This document shows positions 2,245-16,922 of a stretch of 36,627 nucleotides of DNA, piece after piece. Each line of letters begins with the position of its first letter. Within the stretch, counting starts at the first letter, position 1. The notes beneath the pieces were generated by a model. That model saw only the letters and a list, made by a program, of their open reading frames with translations, was not told the DNA's origin and did no database searches. Source of the stretch: Pararhodobacter sp. (GTDB lineage: Bacteria; Pseudomonadota; Alphaproteobacteria; Rhodobacterales; Rhodobacteraceae); contig JAFIEK010000038.1 in the NCBI GenBank assembly GCA_020832545.1, positions 1 to 36,627 on the forward strand, in the 5' to 3' direction. The translations under genes were made by a program, and so were the position numbers.

Positions 2245-2862
2245 TCAGTCGGTCTCTGACTCGGTGCAGACCACCAGTATCCGCGCGTCCTGAGCGCCGG
2301 ACGAGGCATAGAGATGGCCGCGCGCGCTGTCGAAATAGATGCTGTCGCCCTGTTGCAACGTGACAGGCACGCGCCCCTCGGCATGGACCGTGACCGCGCC
2401 TTCCAGCACCAGCAGAAACTCCTGCCCCGGATGGCGCACAAAATCGTCGAAATCCAGAATGTCATGGGCCTTGAGCGTGCCCATCATCGGCACCATGGCC
2501 TTGTTCCGGATTTCCGGGAACAGCATTTCATAGACGTAATTGCGGGTTTCCTGCTTTCGGAATGTGCCGCGCGGGGCCACGGCAAAACTGCCGGGCGCAA
2601 AGGCTTCGCCCTCGTTGGTGAAGAACTCGGCCATGTCCACGCCGATGCCGCGCGCCAGTTGCAGCATGCGGTCATAGGTCAACGCCATGACCCCGCGTTC
2701 AGCTTTGGAAATGGTCGAGATTGCCAGCCCTGAACGCTCTGCCAGTTCCGCCAGTGTCCAGCCGCGCGCGCGACGCAACTCGCGCAACCGGCGGCCGAAT
2801 TCGGCGCGCTGGTTGCCAGGGCTGTCGGTCGCGGGGCGATCGTCCGGGGGCTGGCTGTTCAT
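2245..2862 (-). CDS. XRE-family transcriptional regulator with C-terminal cupin domain
   Basis: Likely ligand-responsive regulator of the divergent operon starting at 2985. The 205-residue protein has an N-terminal XRE helix-turn-helix (about 20-75, with RELRRARGWTLAELAERSG and the recognition-helix region SISKAERG-like) and a C-terminal cupin (about 125-200, with HPGQEFLLVLEG and QQGDSIYF). XRE-cupin proteins typically control amino-acid, polyamine or other nitrogen-compound catabolism next to them, with the cupin binding a small molecule. The ATG at 2862 was preferred because translation from the ATG at 2982 would run through the A/T-rich operator repeats. The start lies 40-60 bp from two tandem 16-bp elements, so autoregulation is plausible. 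The effector is unknown. Confidence 0.85.
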   Translation of the reverse strand: MNSQPPDDRPATDSPGNQRAEFGRRLRELRRARGWTLAELAERSGLAISTISKAERGVMALTYDRMLQLARGIGVDMAEFFTNEGEAFAPGSFAVAPRGTFRKQETRNYVYEMLFPEIRNKAMVPMMGTLKAHDILDFDDFVRHPGQEFLLVLEGAVTVHAEGRVPVTLQQGDSIYFDSARGHLYASSGAQDARILVVCTESETD

Positions 2863-2901: not shown

Positions 2902-2938
2902 TTTTCCGATACGAAAAAATACTTTTCCGATACGAAAA
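2902..2938. promoter_or_regulatory. Tandem 16-bp operator candidates between divergent genes
   Basis: Two identical copies of TTTTCCGATACGAAAA lie at 2902-2917 and 2923-2938. Their start-to-start distance is 21 bp, about two helical turns, so both sites face the same side of the DNA. Each copy has TTTTC/GAAAA inverted outer arms around a 6-bp core. They occupy the space between the regulator start (2862) and the operon start (2985), close to where a -35 region would sit for either gene. They are the best candidate binding sites for the XRE-cupin regulator. Confidence 0.7.
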
Positions 2939-2984: not shown

Positions 2985-4112
2985 ATGGAAAGCTGGGATG
3001 TAGCTGTCATTGGCGCGGGCATTGCCGGGGCCTCTGCCGCCGCCGAACTGGCGGCGCTGGGTGCGCGCGTTGTGCTGCTGGAACGTGAAGCGCAGCCCGG
3101 CTACCACACCACTGGCCGCTCGGCCGCGCTGTTCACCGTGACCTATGGCCCGCCGGTGATCCGCGCGCTGTCACGGGCCTCGGCCACCCATTTTAACGCC
3201 CCGCCTGATGCCGCCCGCCCCCATCCTTTGCTGCGTCCGCGCGGTGCGTTGTTCATCGCGCGGGCGGATCAGTTGGATGCGCTTGATGCATTGGCGGCAG
3301 AGCTGGGCACAGCGGCGCAGCGCATCGGGCAGGCTGAAACGCTGGCCCACCTGCCGATCCTGCGCCCGGACTATATCGCCGGGGCGCTGCTTGACCCGGT
3401 CGCCGCCGATATCGACGTGGACGCCCTGCATCGCCAGTATCTGCGCACCCTCGCCGCTCAAGGCGGGGAGTTGCGCACAAACGCACCGGTTCTGGGTCTG
3501 TCGCGCGACAGTTCAGGCTGGAAGATCGAAACGCGGGCGGGTGCGGTCAATGCGCGGATCGTCGTCAACGCCGCCGGAGCCTGGGCCGACGAAGTTGCAG
3601 GAATGGCCGGCGTGGCACCGGTAGGGCTGGAGCCACGGCGGCGCACGGCGGTGCTGGTATCGCCACCCGCCGGGCACAACATTGAGCGTTGGCCCATGAC
3701 GGTTGATATCGATGAGCGCTTCTATCTGAAGCCCGACGCCGGGAAACTGCTGCTCTCGCCCGCTGACGAGACCCGCTCGCCGCCCTGTGATGCCCAGCCC
3801 GAGGAGCTGGATATCGCGATCTGCATCGACCGGATCCAGACCGCATTTGACCTGCCGGTTCAGCGGATAGACCACAAATGGGCGGGGCTGCGGTCATTCG
3901 TTGCCGACAAGTGCCCGGTTGCGGGCTTCGCCCCGGAAGCGCCGGGCTTCTTCTGGCTGGCGGGGCAGGGCGGCTATGGCATCCAGAGCGCCCCGGCGCT
4001 GGCCCGGCTTGCTGCGGCGCTGGTGCTGGGCCGCCCAATCCCTGACGATATCACCGCGCAGGGCGTCACCGCAGCGGCGTTGGCCCCGCACAGACAGGCG
4101 CTGGCGGCATGA
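2985..4112 (+). CDS. FAD-dependent D-amino-acid dehydrogenase, DauA-like (DAO family)
   Basis: Predicted to oxidise a D-amino acid to an imino acid (then 2-oxo acid), using bound FAD. The 375-residue protein has the Rossmann motif GAGIAGA at 10-16 and closely resembles my recollection of Pseudomonas aeruginosa D-arginine dehydrogenase across its length: EREAQPGYH at 33-41, GRSAA at 44-48, FYLKPDAG at 246-253, WAGLRSFVAD at 299-308 and GQGGYGIQ at 327-334. Residues equivalent to the substrate-carboxylate and active-site groups of DauA are present (Tyr54, Arg220, Tyr247, Arg303). The positions equivalent to DauA His48 and the side-chain-binding Glu87 are Leu49 and Ala88, so the preferred substrate is probably not D-arginine. 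It is the first gene of the operon and overlaps dctM by ATGA. Sarcosine or glycine oxidase is a less likely alternative. Confidence 0.82.
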   Translation: MESWDVAVIGAGIAGASAAAELAALGARVVLLEREAQPGYHTTGRSAALFTVTYGPPVIRALSRASATHFNAPPDAARPHPLLRPRGALFIARADQLDALDALAAELGTAAQRIGQAETLAHLPILRPDYIAGALLDPVAADIDVDALHRQYLRTLAAQGGELRTNAPVLGLSRDSSGWKIETRAGAVNARIVVNAAGAWADEVAGMAGVAPVGLEPRRRTAVLVSPPAGHNIERWPMTVDIDERFYLKPDAGKLLLSPADETRSPPCDAQPEELDIAICIDRIQTAFDLPVQRIDHKWAGLRSFVADKCPVAGFAPEAPGFFWLAGQGGYGIQSAPALARLAAALVLGRPIPDDITAQGVTAAALAPHRQALAA

Positions 4113-5395
4113 TCCAGATCGTTCCACTCATCGGCCTCGTACTGCTCGCCTCGGGGCTGGCGATTGCCTATGTGGTGGGCGGCGCGGCGGTACTGGCCTT
4201 CATTGCCACCGACCGCACACGCTTTCTGGCGATCCTGCCGCAGCAGATCTTCTCCAAGATTGATGTTTTCGCGCTGATGGCCATGCCACTGTTCATTCTG
4301 GCGGGCGAGGTGATGAACCGGGGCGGCATCACCCGTGTGCTGATCAATCTGGCGATGTCACTGGTGGGCAGGCTGCGCGGCGGGTTGGGGCATGTGAATG
4401 TGCTGACCAGCGTGTTTTTCGCCGGAATCTCGGGCTCGGCGGTGGCGGATTCGGCGGCGCTGTCGAACACGCTGGTGCCCGCGATGCGTGAGCGTGGTTA
4501 CAAGCTGGACTATGCCGGGGCGATCACGGCGGCCTCGTCGATCATCGGGCCGATCGTGCCGCCGTCGATTGTGATGATCTTTTATGGCGCGCTGATGAGC
4601 ACCTCGGTGACGGCGCTGTTCATGGCGGGCATCATTCCGGGGCTGTTGCTGGCGGCGGCCCTGATTGCCACGAACGCCTTTTTCGCATGGCGCGATGACC
4701 ACCCCCGCCTGCTGCCCGCCGAGGTGCCGCGCTTCTTCCCCACCCTGCTGCATGCGCTGCCCGCGCTCATGATCCCGCTGATCATCGTTGGCGGCATCAT
4801 CTTTGGCCTGATGACCCCGACCGAAGCTGCTGCCGTGGCTGTAGTCGCCGCTGTCGGGGCCGGGTACTTTTACGAAGGGCTTGGCCTACGGGGCCTGCTG
4901 GAGGCCTTGCGCCGCACCGCCATGCTGTCGGGCGCGATCTTCATGATTATCGCCGCTGTCTCAGCTTTGGGCTATCTGGGCGCGCTTGAGCGTATCCCCG
5001 AGGCCATCGCCACCTGGGTTGACGATATGGGCCTTGGTCCGCTGCAATACCTGCTCCTGCTCAATGTGATCTTTCTGGTGGCGGGCATGGTGCTGGATAT
5101 CCCTGTCGCGCTGGCGCTTCTGGTGCCGCTTCTGGCGCCGGTGGCAATCGCACAGGGGGCGGACCCGGTGCATCTGGGCATCGTCTTGAGCTTCAATCTG
5201 TGCATCGGCCTGATCTCGCCACCGTTGGGGGGGTGCCTGCTGGTTGTCTCTACCGTAACGGGGCTGAACTACTGGCGGCTGGCGCGCGCTGTGTTGCCGT
5301 TTTTACTGGTGCAGATCGTCGTGTTGATTGTGCTGGTGCAGGTACCCGAAATCTCGTTGTGGCTGCCGCGGCAGATGGGGCTGATTGGCGGGTAG
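4109..5395 (+). CDS. TRAP transporter large permease, DctM family
   Basis: The 428-residue polytopic membrane protein is the ion-coupled translocation subunit of a tripartite TRAP importer. It is hydrophobic throughout, with about 11-12 predicted segments. It carries family-typical stretches: MPLFILAGEVM (about 54-64), FFAGISGSAVAD (about 103-114), the glycine/proline-rich SSIIGPIVPPS (about 142-152) and a repeat of this in SPPLGG near 370. Length is usual for DctM. The start ATG overlaps the stop of the upstream dehydrogenase gene (ATGA at 4109-4112), so translation is coupled. The binding protein and small permease follow, giving the order M-P-Q instead of the common P-Q-M. Confidence 0.93.
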   Translation: MIQIVPLIGLVLLASGLAIAYVVGGAAVLAFIATDRTRFLAILPQQIFSKIDVFALMAMPLFILAGEVMNRGGITRVLINLAMSLVGRLRGGLGHVNVLTSVFFAGISGSAVADSAALSNTLVPAMRERGYKLDYAGAITAASSIIGPIVPPSIVMIFYGALMSTSVTALFMAGIIPGLLLAAALIATNAFFAWRDDHPRLLPAEVPRFFPTLLHALPALMIPLIIVGGIIFGLMTPTEAAAVAVVAAVGAGYFYEGLGLRGLLEALRRTAMLSGAIFMIIAAVSALGYLGALERIPEAIATWVDDMGLGPLQYLLLLNVIFLVAGMVLDIPVALALLVPLLAPVAIAQGADPVHLGIVLSFNLCIGLISPPLGGCLLVVSTVTGLNYWRLARAVLPFLLVQIVVLIVLVQVPEISLWLPRQMGLIGG

Positions 5396-5428
5396 AGAAA
5401 AATAATGAACCAACAGGAGGAAGTGACA

Positions 5429-6400
5429 ATGAAACCGATGAAACTGCTGGCCGCCACGGCCATGGCACTCGTGATGGCAAGCACGGCGCAGGCGCAGGTT
5501 AAAATCGCGCTCGACAGCCCGGCCGATCTGGATGGCTCGGGCAGCTATGTCTGGGCGCATGTGTTTGCCAATCATCTCAACGAAAACGGCGTGGAGGCCG
5601 AGGAATACCAGCGCGGTGCGCTTGGCGGCGATGACGAGGTGTTTGACCAGGTCAGCCAGGGCTTGTTGGAAGTGGGGATGGCACCGCTGAACATTGTGGC
5701 GTCGATCGATCCGCTGATCTTTGGTCTGCGCCTGCCCTATTTCTTCGCCGATATGGAAGAAGTGGACCGCGCGCTTTACGATGGCGGCATGCTGGCGCGG
5801 ATCAACGAGGCGACGACACCTGCTGGCGTGCGGGTCCTGGGCGTCAACACCGTGGGCCCTGCCACCGGCATCTTCAACACCCGCCGCCCGGTAAGTTCGG
5901 TCGAGGACATGGCAGGCCTGCGCATGCGCGCGCTTGATGAAAGCCAGATTGATCTGTTTCGCGCCTGGGGTGCGGCGGGCACGATCGTCAGCTGGGCAGA
6001 GGTGCCGAACGCGCTGCAAACCGGCGTGGCAGATGGCTATCTGAACCCGGCATTCGTGCCGCTTCTGTTTGGTCATACCGAGTTCATCAAGCATTTCACC
6101 GATGCTGCGGTCTCGCCCTCGCTGCGCATCACTATTGTCTCTGAAGACTGGTATCAGGGCCTCAGCGATGATGAACGCGCGGTGGTCGATGCCGCTGCGC
6201 AGGCCGCCGATGCTGCCAACCGTGAATGGCTGGGCACGCAGGACGGCGTGATCGATCAACTGATTGAGGCCGGGGTGGAAGTGACCGAGCTGACGCCTGA
6301 GGCGCGCACGGCCTTTCAGGAGGCGTCTGCAGCCACGTATGCAGATGGGGTGCTGAGCGCCGAGCAGATCGCGGAATGGGAAGCCGCGATCGGGCGCTGA
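5429..6400 (+). CDS. TRAP transporter periplasmic substrate-binding protein, DctP family
   Basis: The 323-residue periplasmic receptor would deliver substrate to the DctQM permease encoded around it. A clear signal peptide (residues 1-23, ending TAQAQ) precedes the mature domain. The region around GLRMRALDESQ (about 169-179) holds the arginine that in this family usually forms a salt bridge with the substrate carboxylate. Asn and Pro in GYLNPAFVP (about 203-211) fall in the second ligand-binding segment. The ATG at 5429 was chosen because CAGGAGG lies 9 nt upstream; an in-frame ATG at 5405 precedes that site. The conserved arginine fits a carboxylate-bearing ligand such as an amino acid, but the exact substrate cannot be read from sequence. 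Confidence 0.9.
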   Translation: MKPMKLLAATAMALVMASTAQAQVKIALDSPADLDGSGSYVWAHVFANHLNENGVEAEEYQRGALGGDDEVFDQVSQGLLEVGMAPLNIVASIDPLIFGLRLPYFFADMEEVDRALYDGGMLARINEATTPAGVRVLGVNTVGPATGIFNTRRPVSSVEDMAGLRMRALDESQIDLFRAWGAAGTIVSWAEVPNALQTGVADGYLNPAFVPLLFGHTEFIKHFTDAAVSPSLRITIVSEDWYQGLSDDERAVVDAAAQAADAANREWLGTQDGVIDQLIEAGVEVTELTPEARTAFQEASAATYADGVLSAEQIAEWEAAIGR

Positions 6401-6404
6401 AAGC

Positions 6405-6944
6405 ATGCGTGCGGTGGCCCTTGCCCTTGACCGGCTGTCAGCGGCGCTGAACAGCATTGCGCTTTGGGGCGCGGTGCTGGCAGTGCTGGTGATGGTCTAT
6501 GCTGCGGGCTGGCAGGTCATCGCGCGCTATTTGCTTGATGCGCCACCCGTCTGGACCGAGGAACTGGCACGCCGGGCCATGGTCTGGGCCGGGATGCTGG
6601 GGGCCTCGGCGGCGTTTCGCGCGGGTGCCGATCCGTCGCTGTTTCCCAATATGGTCGAAATCCGTGGGCGGCTGGGGCTGGTTCTGGCGCTGATCCGGGC
6701 GGCGGGTGTGGCGCTCTTTGCCGCGCCCGTGATCTGGTTCTCGCTTTACGGTCCCAACATGAACATGGCGCGCGGCTTTCTGGGCCGCTCGCTGGATCGC
6801 ACCGCCGAGATGATCCCGATCTCGATGATCTGGTTCACCGCCGCCGTTCCCATCGCTTTTGTGCTGATTGTGCTGCACATGCTGGCGGGGCTGGCCATCC
6901 GGCTGACCGACCCCGAAGTCTACACCCCCAAGGAAACTTCATGA
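6405..6944 (+). CDS. TRAP transporter small permease, DctQ family
   Basis: The 179-residue membrane protein has four predicted helices (about 12-38, 52-70, 90-118 and 135-160) with the DctQ-typical WTEELARRAMVWAGMLGASAA-like segment near 46-66. It would pair with DctM to form the membrane part of the TRAP importer. It starts 4 bp after the binding-protein gene, and its stop overlaps the next ATG (ATGA at 6941-6944), so transport and the downstream peptidase are translated as one unit. Confidence 0.9.
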   Translation: MRAVALALDRLSAALNSIALWGAVLAVLVMVYAAGWQVIARYLLDAPPVWTEELARRAMVWAGMLGASAAFRAGADPSLFPNMVEIRGRLGLVLALIRAAGVALFAAPVIWFSLYGPNMNMARGFLGRSLDRTAEMIPISMIWFTAAVPIAFVLIVLHMLAGLAIRLTDPEVYTPKETS

Positions 6945-8401
6945 AGCTGTTTACCGCCTGCCTTGCCACGGAAACCAACTCGTTCTCGCCCCTGCCCACC
7001 GGATACGCGGGCTTTGCCGAAAGCGGCATCCACCACGGCACCGCCACCCAAGGCCCCCCCGATTACTGGACCGGCGCACTGCATATCTGGCGCAAACGTG
7101 CCGAGGCGCGGGGCTGGGAGGTCGCGGAAAGCCTTGCCGCCTTTGCCCAGCCCGCCGGACCGACCGTGCGCCCAGTCTATGAGGCATTTCGCGATGAAAT
7201 TCTTGCCGATCTGCGCGCCGCCATGCCCGTGGACATGGTGTTGCTGCAACTGCATGGCGCGATGATTGCCGATGGTTATGACGATTGCGAGGGCGATCTG
7301 ATCGCCCATATCCGCGCCATTGCCCCTGATGCGAAAATCGGCGGGTTGCTGGACCCGCATTGCCATTTGACCAAGGCGATGCTGACCAAGGCCACCGCGC
7401 TGATCGCCTTCAAGGAATACCCCCATATTGACCTGCCTGCGCGCGCAGAAGAGCTGTTCACTCTGATCACGGATGCCGCCGAGGGCCGCACCAACCCGGT
7501 GATGCGCGATCATGACTGCCGCATCATCATGGCCATGCCCACGCCCGAGGGCGCAATGCGCGCCTATGTCGATGCGATGATCGCCCGCGAAAGCGAGCCG
7601 GGTGTGCTGTCGCTGTCGCTGGCGCATGGCTTCCCCTGGGGTGACCATGAACGCACCGGCGCGCGCGCCTTCGCAGTTACCGATGGCGACGCTGATCTGG
7701 CGGCACGGATGGCGCGCGAGCTGGGCGAGAAGCTGTTTTCTGAACGTCATGAGATCTTCCAGCCAGTGCATGACATCGCTGCCGCACTGGATATGGCCGC
7801 CGCCGCGTCAGGCGGGCCATTGGTGCTGGCGGATATGTCTGACAACGCGGGCGGCGGCGCGCCGTCGGATGCCACCTTCCTTCTACGCGCGATGCTGGAG
7901 CGCGGGGTGTCATCAATCGTCAGTGGCATCTTCTATGACCCGATGGCGTTGCGGGTGCTGCAAGACGCGGGTGAGGGGGCCACGCTGCCGATCCGGCTGG
8001 GCGGCAAGTTCGGCCCCATGTCGGGCGACCCGCTGGATCTGAGGGTGAGGGTGCGTAAACTGGCATCCGGACTGACACAGCGTTTCGGCAGCCTGCCGGT
8101 GGCGCTGGGGCAGATGGCATGGGTGACGCTGGCGAGCGACGACAGCATTGATCTGGTGATCAACGACACCCGCACCCAGACCTTCCACCCTGAGGCTTTC
8201 ACCGGACTTGGTATCGATCTGACCGCCCGGCGGCACGTCTGTGTGAAATCCTCCAACCATTACCGTGCGGGCTTTGCCCCCATCGCGCGCGCGATCATAC
8301 CAGTGGCTACGCCCGGCGCGATCACGCCTGATTTCGCCAATATCCCCTACACCCGCCGCGCCCCCAACTACTGGCCCAAGGTCGAGGACCCGTTTGCATG
8401 A
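6941..8401 (+). CDS. M81-family metallopeptidase (MlrC-like)
   Basis: The 486-residue cytoplasmic protein belongs to the M81 family, named for MlrC, the last enzyme of microcystin breakdown in sphingomonads. Candidate zinc ligands are visible: Asp138 and His140 in LLDPHCH and His162 in EYPHID, a D-x-H plus later H arrangement as in MlrC. His105 in QLHGAM is also conserved. The C-terminal half has the family features ADMSDNAGGGAPSD (about 287-300) and KSSNHYRAGF (about 434-443). There is no signal peptide, so it would act after import. Most family members have unknown substrates; peptide or amide hydrolysis is the default inference. Both gene borders are ATGA overlaps, tying it to the transporter and the next hydrolase. 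Confidence 0.85.
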   Translation: MKLFTACLATETNSFSPLPTGYAGFAESGIHHGTATQGPPDYWTGALHIWRKRAEARGWEVAESLAAFAQPAGPTVRPVYEAFRDEILADLRAAMPVDMVLLQLHGAMIADGYDDCEGDLIAHIRAIAPDAKIGGLLDPHCHLTKAMLTKATALIAFKEYPHIDLPARAEELFTLITDAAEGRTNPVMRDHDCRIIMAMPTPEGAMRAYVDAMIARESEPGVLSLSLAHGFPWGDHERTGARAFAVTDGDADLAARMARELGEKLFSERHEIFQPVHDIAAALDMAAAASGGPLVLADMSDNAGGGAPSDATFLLRAMLERGVSSIVSGIFYDPMALRVLQDAGEGATLPIRLGGKFGPMSGDPLDLRVRVRKLASGLTQRFGSLPVALGQMAWVTLASDDSIDLVINDTRTQTFHPEAFTGLGIDLTARRHVCVKSSNHYRAGFAPIARAIIPVATPGAITPDFANIPYTRRAPNYWPKVEDPFA

Positions 8402-9252
8402 CCAATTCGCTGATCGACGCCCGCGATGCTTTCACCTGCCAACACCCTGAAACCCGCATCTCGCTGAACGGGCGCGACTGGGGGCTGATTGATGCCGGGC
8501 AAGGCGATCAGGCGCTCGTGCTGATACCCGGCACGCTGGGGCGCGCTGACATCTTCTGGCAACAGATCGAGGCGCTGGCCCCGCGTTTACGTGTGTTGGC
8601 TGTCAGCTACCCGGATGCAGGCGGAATTGCCGAGTGGTGCATGGATGTTCAGGCGCTGATGGATGAAAAGGGCATCAATCAGGCGGCGGTGCTGGGTTCA
8701 TCACTGGGCGGGTATCTGGCGCAATACATCGCAGGTCATGCCCCGTCGCGCGTCAGCCACCTGTTCGCGGCCAGCACGTTGCACAGCGTGCAGGGGCTGG
8801 AAACCCGCCCGCCTTATTCTGCCGATCTTCAGGCCGCCCCGATCGAGGCTTTGCGCGCGGGCTTCACGCTGGCCATGCAGGCTTGGGGTCAGACCCATCC
8901 GGATCAGGCTGATCTGGTTGAGTTCCTGCTGGCCGAGGTCGGAGGCCGCATTACTGAGGGCGAGATGCGCGCGCGTCTTTCGGCGCTCAAGCACGGGCCG
9001 GAACTGCCCGAAACTTCGCTGCCCGGTAAGGCGATGACCTGTGTCGAAGCCCTTGATGACCCGCTGATCGCGCCGCCCATGCGCGCGGCGGTTCGTGCCC
9101 GCCTGCCCGGCGCAGCGGCGTTCCGGTTTTTGTGGGGCGGGCACTTTCCCTATGTGCTGCGCCCGGCGCTTTACAGCAATATCATCGCCGTGCGGCTGGG
9201 GCTGGAGCCTTTGGCGGAAGACTGGCAAGGCAGCGAGGTTCTTGAGGCATGA
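8398..9252 (+). CDS. Alpha/beta hydrolase, maspardin (SPG21)-like
   Basis: The 284-residue alpha/beta-hydrolase-fold protein has the nucleophile elbow GSSLG at 100-104 (Ser102), a candidate acid in EALDDPLI (about 217-224) and a late His in GGHFPYVLRP (about 248-257). The block VLIPGTLGRADIFWQQI (about 41-57), the GSSLGGYLAQ region and the late GGxFPYxxR block are very like what I recall of eukaryotic maspardin, a hydrolase-fold protein lacking the usual histidine. Here the His is present, so the bacterial protein looks catalytically competent. The substrate is unknown; an ester, amide or lactone related to the operon's substrate is plausible. Start and stop both overlap neighbours by ATGA. 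Confidence 0.82.
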   Translation: MTNSLIDARDAFTCQHPETRISLNGRDWGLIDAGQGDQALVLIPGTLGRADIFWQQIEALAPRLRVLAVSYPDAGGIAEWCMDVQALMDEKGINQAAVLGSSLGGYLAQYIAGHAPSRVSHLFAASTLHSVQGLETRPPYSADLQAAPIEALRAGFTLAMQAWGQTHPDQADLVEFLLAEVGGRITEGEMRARLSALKHGPELPETSLPGKAMTCVEALDDPLIAPPMRAAVRARLPGAAAFRFLWGGHFPYVLRPALYSNIIAVRLGLEPLAEDWQGSEVLEA

Positions 9253-10226
9253 AGGTACTCAGCAATGCGGATATCGCCGCACTTTTGCCCATGGATGCGG
9301 CCATTGCGGTGGTCGATGCCGTGATGCGCCGGGTCTCTGTGGGTGGCGCACAACTGCCTTTGCGCCATGTGGTGCCGGTGGGCGGCAAGAACATGATGGG
9401 CGTCATGTCCGGCGCGCTTGATGCACCGCAGTGTTACGGGGTCAAGCTGGTCAGCCTGTTCCCCGATAACCCCGCGCGCGGCTTGTCCGGTCATCGCGGG
9501 GCGGTGGTGCTGTTCGAGGCGGAAACCGGTGGCGCGGTGGCGATGATGGATGCAGGTCTGCTGACCGCCATCCGCACCGCCGCTGCCAGCGGCGTGGCCA
9601 CACGCGCGCTGGCCCGACCAGATGCCGAACGTCTGACGCTGATCGGCACGGGCGAACAGGGCGAACACCATCTGGAGGCCATGCTGGCTGTGCGCCCGAT
9701 CAAATCCGTGCATGTGGTCGGCCGACGGGCGGAGAGGGCCGAGAGCTTCGCGCAGAACGCCAGAGACCGCCACCCCGGACTGGCCATCACCCATGGAACC
9801 GACGCGCAGGCGGGCGTGCGCGGAGCGGATATCATTTGCACCGTGACCAATGCGGCCCAGCCGGTGCTGATGGGCGACTGGCTGGAGGCCGGGCAGCACC
9901 TGAATGTGGTCGGCGCCTCAGTCCCCAGCAAGCGCGAGATCGACGACGCGGCGGTCTTGCGCACGCAGGTCTTTGCTGACTACCGCCCGTCTTTCTTTGC
10001 CCAGGCGGGCGAAATTGTGGAGATGATCGCGGCGGGTGCAATCAGCGAGGGGCATCTGCGCGCAGAAATCGGCGAGGTGCTGGCGGGGGATGCGGCAGGA
10101 CGGCAAAGCGCCGATGCCATCACGCTCTACCGCTCGCTGGGGATCACCGCGCAGGACCTGGCGGTGGCGCAACATTGTCTTGACCGCGCCTTGGCAGAAG
10201 GACGCGGGCAGGACGTGGCATTCTGA
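9249..10226 (+). CDS. Ornithine cyclodeaminase / mu-crystallin family reductase (DauB-like)
   Basis: The 325-residue NAD(P)-dependent enzyme has the Rossmann motif GTGEQGEHH at 133-141, the conserved active-site Lys66 in YGVKLVSLFP, and Arg109 in the LLTAIRT block. The family includes ornithine cyclodeaminase, alanine dehydrogenase of archaea, pyrroline-2-carboxylate reductase, iminosuccinate reductase BhcD and Pseudomonas DauB, which reduces 2-ketoarginine to L-arginine. Because a DauA-like dehydrogenase opens this operon, the most economical role is reduction of the imino acid or 2-oxo acid to the L-amino acid. This is inference from family and context. It is the last gene of the operon; its ATG overlaps the hydrolase stop. 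Confidence 0.85.
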   Translation: MKVLSNADIAALLPMDAAIAVVDAVMRRVSVGGAQLPLRHVVPVGGKNMMGVMSGALDAPQCYGVKLVSLFPDNPARGLSGHRGAVVLFEAETGGAVAMMDAGLLTAIRTAAASGVATRALARPDAERLTLIGTGEQGEHHLEAMLAVRPIKSVHVVGRRAERAESFAQNARDRHPGLAITHGTDAQAGVRGADIICTVTNAAQPVLMGDWLEAGQHLNVVGASVPSKREIDDAAVLRTQVFADYRPSFFAQAGEIVEMIAAGAISEGHLRAEIGEVLAGDAAGRQSADAITLYRSLGITAQDLAVAQHCLDRALAEGRGQDVAF

Positions 10227-10595: not shown

Positions 10596-11801
10596 TCAGG
10601 CCGCCTGGCGCTGTCCCCACTTGGGGAACGGGTCTGGCAGGTCAGCCCAGGCGTGGGGGGTGAAGTCTTCACCGGGCAGCAACGCGCCATCCAGCGCAGC
10701 GGTGATCGCCGCCTTGTCCATGCCCGCGCCGATGAACACCAGCTCCTGCCGCCGATCGCCCCAGGGCTCGGCCCATTTTGACGCCACCTCATCCAACGCA
10801 TCCGGGTGGGTAGGCCAGCGCTCACGCGGCACGCTGTCCCACCAGCCACCCAAAGGTGTCACCGACGATATCGCGCCTGCAAGGCTGAACTCGACCGCCC
10901 AGTTGGGGCGCGAGGCGATCCAGAAGTGCCCCTTGGCCCGGATCACGCCCGGAAGTGCCCCATTGAGAACACCATGCAGCTTTGTCGGATCAAACGGACG
11001 GCGGGCGCGATAGACAAAGGACGAAATGCCGTATTCCTCGGTTTCCGGTACATGCTCGGCAAAACCATAGAGTTCCTTGGCCCACATCGGGTGCATATGC
11101 GCGCGGTCAAAATCGAACAGGCCGGTGTCGAAAATCTCACTGGCCGCAACCAGCGAATGGTCGGTTTCGATCAGCTTGGCATCGGGGTTGAGCGCCTTGA
11201 TGATCTTGCGCGCGGCATCGGTGCGCGCGGGCCCGGCGTCAGTGGTCTTGTTCAGAACCACTACATCGGCGAATTCGATCTGTTCGGTCAGCAGATTGAC
11301 CAGTGTGCGGTCATCGTCCTCGCCCAGCGATTCGCCGCGATCTGACAGAAAATCATGGCTGGCATAGTCTTTCAGCAGGTTCACGGCATCGACCACCGTC
11401 ACCATCGTGTCCAGCCGCGAGACATCGGAAAGGCTTTCACCGTTTTCATCGCGGAAATCAAAGGTCGCGGCGACGGGGAGGGGTTCGGCGATGCCGGTTG
11501 ATTCGATCAACAGGTAGTCAAAACGGCCCTCGGCGGCGAGGCGGCGCACTTCGATCAGAAGATCGTCGCGCAGGGTACAGCAGATGCACCCGTTGGTCAT
11601 TTCCACCAGCTTTTCCTCTGACCGCGAAAGTTCGGCCCCGTCGCGCACTAGATCGGCGTCAATGTTGACCTCGGACATGTCATTGACGATGACCGCCACC
11701 CGGCGGCCTTCTCGGTTGTTGAGAACATGGTTCAGAAGCGTGGTCTTGCCCGCTCCCAGAAAGCCTGAAAGCACTGTCACCGGAAGGCGTCTGTCCGACA
11801 T
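10596..11801 (-). CDS. COG0523 / CobW-family GTP-binding metallochaperone (ZigA/ZNG1-like)
   Basis: A 401-residue G3E GTPase. The P-loop GFLGAGKT is at 13-20, the metal-binding CICC at 72-75, and the switch-type ESTGIAEP follows at about 107-114. The C-terminal CobW domain starts near residue 250. His-containing DRAHMHPMW (about 229-237) could also bind metal. Family members hand metal, often zinc under starvation, to client proteins; others serve cobalt or nitrile hydratase. The Zur-like palindrome at 11848-11862, about 50 bp upstream, argues for the zinc group. The ATG at 11801 is preferred over 11828 because AAAGGAGA sits 9 nt before it. Confidence 0.88.
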
Positions 11802-11847
11802 GATTCTGGTTCTCCTTTGCATCGTCAAAATTCGCGGTTTCGATAAT

Positions 11848-16835: not shown

Positions 16836-16922
16836 GCGGTCGTGGCGGAATTGGTAGACGCGCAGCGTTGAGGTCGCTGTGGGGTAACTCCCGTGGAAGT
16901 TCGAGTCTTCTCGACCGCACCA
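16836..16922 (+). tRNA. tRNA-Leu, anticodon GAG
   Basis: An 87-nt gene including encoded CCA. The acceptor stem pairs GCGGTCG (16836-16842) with CGACCGC (16912-16918). The D arm contains GGCGGAATTGGTAGACGC. The anticodon stem CAGCG/CGCTG encloses the 7-nt loop TTGAGGT, giving anticodon GAG (reads CUU and CUC). A long variable arm, typical of class II tRNAs, is followed by TTCGAGT in the T loop. No direct repeat of its 3' end was noticed downstream. Confidence 0.97.

Follow-up and report, generated by a model that had tools for sequence, protein, structure and literature searches.

A predicted operon for scavenging D-amino-acid compounds in Pararhodobacter, with a TRAP importer, an M81 peptidase and a tandem operator-like palindrome

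We describe a seven-gene operon and its divergent regulator gene in a stretch of 36,627 nucleotides from Pararhodobacter sp. (contig JAFIEK010000038.1), the whole of which was analysed and is called the window below. Judging by its gene content and by the genetic context of its relatives, this is probably a regulated scavenging operon for amide-bonded compounds of non-basic D-amino acids, most likely wall-derived D,D-dipeptides of the D-Ala-D-Ala type. We are confident that the substrate contains a D-amino acid of some kind; within the reading just given, D-Ala-D-Ala itself is a serious possibility, to which we give somewhat less than even weight. The D-amino acids of cell walls make up a large store of organic nitrogen, and the system is a variation on the known systems for scavenging D,D-dipeptides and D-amino acids. 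The features of the unit are as follows.

2245..2862, minus strand: XRE (HTH_3) plus cupin regulator, 205 amino acids (Pfam HTH_3 and Cupin_2; gene models)
2903..2937, no strand: predicted operator, a tandem palindrome-like TTTCCGATACGAAA, with copies at 2903-2916 and 2924-2937
2985..4112, plus strand: DauA-like FAD D-amino-acid dehydrogenase (Pfam DAO; alignment to DauA)
4109..5395, plus strand: TRAP large permease, DctM (Pfam)
5429..6400, plus strand: TRAP periplasmic binding protein, DctP (Pfam; the reading frame as called begins at 5405)
6405..6944, plus strand: TRAP small permease, DctQ (Pfam)
6941..8401, plus strand: M81/MlrC-family metallopeptidase (Pfam DUF1485 and MlrC_C; motifs)
8398..9252, plus strand: alpha/beta hydrolase (Pfam Abhydrolase_1; catalytic set)
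9249..10226, plus strand: reductase of the ornithine cyclodeaminase/mu-crystallin family (Pfam OCD_Mu_crystall)

Positions 2985-10226 are filled by seven open reading frames (ORFs) on the plus strand, in the order listed from flavoenzyme to reductase. A first-pass annotation of this DNA had reported seven consecutive genes with four ATGA overlaps, and the ORFs and their junctions bear this out: 4-base ATGA overlaps join the flavoenzyme gene to that of the large permease, the small permease to M81, M81 to the alpha/beta hydrolase (ABH), and ABH to the ornithine cyclodeaminase (OCD)-family reductase, and the remaining two junctions are gaps of 9 and 4 bases. All the Pfam matches (DAO, DctM, DctP, DctQ, DUF1485 of M81 together with MlrC_C, Abhydrolase_1 and OCD_Mu_crystall) exceed their cut-offs, in agreement with the earlier assignment of a full TRAP importer, an M81/MlrC peptidase and an OCD-family reductase. 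For DctP, a start at 5429, with AGGAGG ahead of it, appears more likely than the called start at 5405. Hidden genes on the opposite strand within the operon were considered and rejected: the overlapping ORFs (for example, 5303-6457 and 6920-7771) were dropped by the codon-based gene model.

From these parts we infer the substrate, each reaction and the regulation. The TRAP transporter would import an intact D-aminoacyl compound, the M81 enzyme would hydrolyse it in the cell, freeing a D-amino acid, and ABH would take a second or alternative bond or a conjugate. The DauA-like flavoenzyme would then convert the D-amino acid to the imino acid, and from the imino acid, or from the 2-oxo acid plus ammonia, the mu-crystallin-type reductase would make the L-amino acid; without that reduction, water would convert the imino acid to the 2-oxo acid. 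The divergent XRE-cupin protein would control the operon at the tandem palindrome. A more specific proposal is that the M81 enzymes of this clade are D,D-dipeptidases, which evolved for D-Ala-D-Ala scavenging independently of VanX/DdpX (M15) and of DppA (M55). In this operon they would be combined with a TRAP importer and with DauA-like and mu-crystallin-like partners that together invert the D-amino acid through the imine. We put this forward tentatively, as being on balance unlikely; if it were true, wall-derived D-alanine would be reused as an L-amino acid.

All seven genes occur in identical order in six further loci (L021-L025 and L075, the prefix L numbering the loci compared), the last of which belongs to another family. 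Conserved in this way across loci, the set is not a chance assembly; the co-occurrence of all seven families in genome neighbourhoods had been proposed earlier as a check. In a survey of 295 genomes of the family, ABH was matched at E 1e-20 or better in 15, the window's own included. All seven genes are present in six of these 15 loci (the window and L021-L025), M81 in 12 and the reductase in 11; two of the 15, L027 and L029, are short contigs of 8.0 and 6.8 kb. Partial sets take several forms. L028 reads DauA-M81-ABH-OCD without TRAP, and in L020 no TRAP gene was seen within 20 kb. L026 reads TRAP-M81-ABH without DauA or OCD, as does L027 without DauA, on a contig that ends past the hydrolase; a single stop interrupts the reading frame of that hydrolase. 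In L030 a PepT-type peptidase gene stands where M81 would be, L031 shows the hydrolase and reductase alone, and in both the reductase is present and DauA absent.

A survey of 385 genomes of the class matched the hydrolase profile in 12, one of them the window's own. L075 has the seven genes and the regulator, ordered as in the window; L085 carries TRAP-M81-ABH at the end of its contig; in L077 and L078, DauA, TRAP and the hydrolase are present and the reductase is missing; and L076 has DauA and the hydrolase. In six distant ABH loci (L079-L084) none of the operon's D-amino-acid partners lies within the stretch shown. Viral contigs gave no relatives among 46, 77 and 73 pattern matches, and a scan of genome contigs with a single protein gave one 30-residue match.

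Three of the loci carry further features. At L032:14342-14927 a decayed dauA-like remnant with one palindrome lies 5' of TRAP-M81-ABH genes; as the reductase gene is absent too, both members of the redox pair seem to have been lost together. Between DauA and TRAP in L077 (6472-7773) and L078 (6538-7821) there is, by eye, a class III aminotransferase-like gene, possibly an alternative fate of the oxo acid. A fourth locus, L033:5227-9422, places the hydrolase near SDR and 5-oxoprolinase-type genes (LamB/YcsF by Pfam, the others by eye), with no further operon member recognised.

The flavoenzyme is DauA-like, as first annotated: 179 of 364 aligned residues (49%) are identical to those of Pseudomonas DauA (6p9d). 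According to the published account of DauA, Glu87 and Glu246 contact the guanidinium group, and Arg222 and Arg305 the carboxylate (PMC11193025). All 16 flavoenzymes compared, window included, retain Arg222, Arg305, Tyr53, Tyr249 and Glu246. In 16 of 16, Glu87 is replaced by A, V, T, L or I (Ala in the window) and His48 by L, I, V or F (Leu in the window). As the guanidinium-binding Glu87 is missing throughout, D-arginine is an unlikely substrate, and we have rejected it. The retention of the first five residues, together with the replacement of Glu87 and His48, fits a dehydrogenase for non-basic D-amino acids. Of the analogy with DauA and DauB that had been drawn for this locus, the carboxylate-binding residues of the DauA type thus stand, but the comparison with arginine fails.

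The reductase matches PF02423 at 240.5 bits against a cut-off of 24, and its NCBIfam matches are all below cut-off. Archaeal alanine dehydrogenase has Asp at a site (1omo aligned as GADGPGKQELD) where 12 of 12 of the reductases compared have Ser (Ser224 in the window), and mu-crystallin likewise has Ser. A true ornithine cyclodeaminase carries Asp in its GxD loop. With Ser in 12 of 12, we rejected both an alanine dehydrogenase and a true cyclodeaminase of the Asp type. The enzyme could turn an imine into an L-amino acid; it could equally act on a cyclic imine. According to PMC5619798, which also speaks of D-arginine racemisation, the iminoarginine made by DauA goes to the keto acid needed by the next enzyme, by way of water or a Rid protein. 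For the window, too, there are thus two options, of which a route through the imine is only one. The D-to-L inversion suggested in the first-pass annotation therefore stays plausible, but its dehydrogenase/reductase pair is dispensable: in Octadecabacter and on two Sulfitobacter plasmids the gene order runs XRE, DauA, TRAP, M81, amidohydrolase and CobW, the last two in place of ABH and the reductase, and one member of the pair is missing from L077 and L078 and from L030 and L031. Relatives of the reductase occur in 39 plasmid records, of which two loci were looked at. One, L054 on an Agrobacterium vitis plasmid, has an OCD-family gene 43% like the window's, divergent from genes for an FAD-dependent oxidoreductase and RidA, and is possibly a second inversion pair.

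The TRAP transporter is complete, with DctP, DctQ and DctM all found, and the N-terminus of the binding protein is signal-like by eye. Among solved binding proteins, those nearest to it are 4n8g (5.9e-38) and 4ngu (2.4e-28), which we take to have been deposited with D-Ala-D-Ala bound; we examined this link by gene context. A search of 398 genomes of the phylum gave 3 with a protein of the 4n8g type (E 1e-60 or better), and in two of the three loci the next gene after TRAP is a Pfam Peptidase_M15 (D-Ala-D-Ala dipeptidase) gene. Among 81 genomes of the family to which one of these three belongs, the protein is present in 32, each of which has an M15 gene on the same strand, 1.9-2.2 kb downstream (32/32); 10 more have the M15 gene without the 4n8g-type protein.

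For the window's own binding protein, ten plasmid relatives (E 1e-20), which represent six or fewer independent lineages, each adjoin a gene for an amide or peptide hydrolase (10/10): M81 with an amidohydrolase in three cases, D-aminoacylase in two, amidase in two and another amidohydrolase in three. None of four control loci, which have a different TRAP protein, is annotated with such a hydrolase; sugar, transketolase or phosphonate genes are found instead. The controls were drawn from 9 of 814 records listed, not counting H64, which is without annotation, or H63, which is the query's own record and has a D-aminoacylase TRAP operon a few kb from the control gene.

A motif, R-x-R-A-[LM]-D-x-S-Q, is common to the window's binding protein, 4n8g and 4ngu. 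Its arginine portion reads RAMDxSQ in 4n8g, 4ngu and L047-L049 (five of five with Asp) and RA[LI]DxxQ in the window's clade, where Asp is found in 18 of 18, an amidase-linked pair included; the four binding proteins linked to D-aminoacylase or amidohydrolase genes all have Asn instead (RALN, 4/4). The motif Asp may read a free amine. In a tree, the 4n8g type and one long-branched control protein are split from the remaining 23 rows (100/99), and the window falls in a supported clade of 18 rows (92/91). A single-sequence fold of the binding protein gave a predicted local distance difference test (pLDDT) score of 37.

The M81 enzyme matches PF07364 at 252.6 bits and PF07171 at 168.2 bits, both above cut-off, and shares the HGAM, D-x-H and YPH motifs with microcystinase C. 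To our knowledge, the sole function described for M81 (MlrC) is microcystin breakdown. We rejected the window's enzyme as an MlrC equivalog, at 325.7 bits against an NCBIfam MlrC cut-off of 999. ABH has a Ser102 (GSSLGG), Asp220/221 and His249 that are invariant in 13 of 13 aligned sequences. It had been called maspardin-like, for which we found no confirmation: its matches are general, namely Pfam Abhydrolase_1, PcaD/BioH-type NCBIfam models below cut-off and, in the PDB, Est1 at 1.3e-8. By eye, M81 and ABH both lack a signal peptide, so they probably work on the compound once it has been imported.

M81 enzymes are common, with matches in 331 plasmid records at E 1e-40 or better. Among the best 25 of the 331, the three closest relatives of the window's M81 lie inside TRAP operons. 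Two of six further relatives, from Phyllobacterium (53%) and Ensifer canadensis (50%), stand beside an M55 D-aminopeptidase-family gene and a DdpC-type D,D-dipeptide ABC permease, the latter scoring 462.3 and 478.6 bits against a cut-off of 434; the XRE regulators beside them are 41-44% like the window's. Context thus ties an M81 clade to D-amino-acyl substrates, and the earlier suggestion that a compound is imported and hydrolysed to release a D-amino acid gains support from the relatives. On plasmid pT1293b of Phyllobacterium sp. T1293 (L052/L045) we also observed an island with two M81 genes, M55, creatininase, a D,D-dipeptide ABC permease, a DauA-like gene, an annotated amino acid deaminase and a serine hydrolase.

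The XRE-cupin regulator, divergent from the operon, and the tandem palindrome belong to the unit. The regulator's orthologues are mostly of 194-207 amino acids by gene models, and an alternative longer ORF, to 2982, would overlap the operator. The two TTTCCGATACGAAA copies lie 21 bases apart, and the start codon of the dauA-like gene is 61 bases away from the closer one. With up to two mismatches allowed, the 16-base form TTTTCCGATACGAAAA has two matches in the window, namely the pair, and 0 in 100 shuffles; when the bases of the intergenic region were shuffled 20,000 times, one site arose in 1 shuffle and two sites in 0. Among 44 loci scanned, two of which overlap one another, a tandem pair of TTTCNNATNNGAAA with a spacing of 21-29 lies 5' of the DauA-like gene in 10 (the window, L020-L025, L075, L077 and L078). 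L032, L039 and L076 have a single site each, Ensifer L046 has two distant sites, and the others have none. The window's own 4.37-Mb genome holds four TTTCNNATNNGAAA sites: the operon's pair, which is the sole pair, one within a predicted gene and one intergenic. The intergenic palindrome, L098:1501-1514, lies 5' of a gene that by eye resembles formate-tetrahydrofolate ligase, and is perhaps a chance occurrence or a second target. The XRE-cupin protein would thus be predicted to bind the tandem palindrome and control the operon; in L021 and L077 the pair is present with no regulator gene recognised beside it. The tandem palindrome can serve as a marker for annotating such operons.

Several observations weigh against a D,D-dipeptide substrate or against parts of the proposed route. 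That 4n8g and 4ngu hold D-Ala-D-Ala is an assumption here, and the window's binding protein has about 30% identity to the 4n8g type, with LDSP rather than YNGP in the first binding segment. In the third 4n8g-type locus (L049) no M15 gene was seen, and the M15 genes match the NCBIfam DdpX and VanX models only below cut-off. The ten plasmid relatives do not stand for ten independent lineages; many forks of the tree are open, the second control falls among the 23 rows, and the two control proteins give no clean root. Four of the six further M81 relatives are without the ddp/M55 set, their contexts being an ABC binding protein (Roseovarius), XRE with an ABC binding protein, amidohydrolase and CobW (Roseomonas), a sugar-type ABC system (Aureimonas) and other peptidases (Paracoccus), and the M81 paralogues in the window's own genome (30-34%) also lie in other contexts. 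ABH has no place in simple use of D-Ala-D-Ala, and is kept without M81 in L030, L031, L033 and L076-L078. It has two plasmid relatives (25-31%), one in a record unannotated at that place; the annotated one (25%) sits with MFS and SDR genes and no D-amino-acid genes. Finally, in 6t3e, the PDB entry that best matches the reductase, the residue at the alanine dehydrogenase Asp site is neither Ser nor Asp.

The imported compound might instead be an N-acyl-, amide- or ester-conjugated D-amino acid, from which M81 or ABH would strip the group before oxidation and reduction. This would account for two hydrolases; the Octadecabacter and Sulfitobacter operons carry an amidohydrolase after M81, and relatives of the binding protein sit with D-aminoacylase or amidohydrolase genes (at 38-44%) or with amidase genes (at 48%). 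However, the proteins linked to D-aminoacylase or amidohydrolase have RALN, whereas the window's clade and the 4n8g type have Asp, and two M81 relatives adjoin D,D-dipeptide transport genes. We regard a conjugate as unlikely, though it deserves to be kept in mind.

A different possibility concerns the released D-amino acid, which might have a ring or an N-substituent, as D-proline and D-pipecolate do. The reductase would then be a delta1-pyrroline-2-carboxylate/ketimine reductase whose product is the L-imino acid. A cyclic imine resists water better, which gives sense to a reductase, and the best PDB match of the enzyme is indeed the delta1-pyrroline-2-carboxylate reductase 6t3e (1.1e-51), followed by thiomorpholine-carboxylate dehydrogenase; the Pyr2C/Pip2C reductase model PRK06141 ranks second in NCBIfam. 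Yet that match, like every NCBIfam match of the reductase, is below cut-off, no proline-specific enzyme was noticed by eye in the annotated loci (no search was aimed at one), and the context of transporter and peptidase favours D,D-dipeptides, so that we think a cyclic substrate improbable. Nor do we find it at all likely, if marginally less improbable, that the substrate is not D-aminoacyl and that the hydrolases and oxidoreductases of the operon act on some other nitrogenous acid. Each of the families covers a broad range of functions, M81 relatives do occur beside sugar-type ABC genes, and relatives of the reductase occur in other settings; but the kin of the binding protein, the kin of M81 and the DauA residues all point to D-amino acids.

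With scavenging of wall-derived D,D-dipeptides as the preferred reading, the closest parallel is the ddp system of E. coli, in which the DdpX dipeptidase accompanies the DdpABCDF ABC importer and the D-amino acid is finally oxidised by DadA. Both systems would share D,D-dipeptide import, hydrolysis within the cell and oxidation of the D-amino acid, these being proposed on the window's side, and a ddpC-type permease and an M55 peptidase gene adjoin two M81 relatives of the window. The window differs in having TRAP rather than ABC, M81 rather than M15 DdpX/VanX, a dehydrogenase and a reductase within the operon, and an XRE-cupin regulator. A TRAP route with stereo-inversion would extend the known ABC/DdpX and DadA routes. 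The 4n8g-like TRAP operons likewise combine an RA[LM]DxSQ binding protein with a dipeptidase-family gene, but this is M15 instead of M81, the regulator is LysR-like by eye in two of three loci, and no DauA or OCD homologue was found in the three.

Like the Pseudomonas DauA/DauB pair, the window combines a DauA-type dehydrogenase that retains the alpha-carboxylate residues with a reductase, of the DauB family according to the first-pass annotation; unlike it, the window is without Glu87 and His48, is not of the arginine type, and joins the pair to an importer and hydrolases. Its M81 shares with microcystinase C the family, both domains and the three motifs, but falls far under the MlrC cut-off, and no mlr-type neighbours were noticed by eye. 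The earlier statement that no pathway with this gene set has been described agrees with our own search of open-access text, in which no paper listed was recognised as describing it.

The nearest identified downstream neighbour of the operon is a ZigA-like CobW zinc GTPase gene at 10596-11828 on the minus strand (599.9 bits against an NCBIfam cut-off of 600), and CobW genes also adjoin M81 loci in L038, L039, L088 and L055. Ahead of the regulator, at 327-2193, lie an ORF that by eye contains two haem-type CxxCH motifs and the flavoprotein chain of a flavocytochrome c sulfide dehydrogenase (Pfam FCSD_central and FCSD-flav_bind), a gene pair that is probably a sulfide-oxidising unit. A tRNA-Leu (gag) is located at 16836-16922 of the window.

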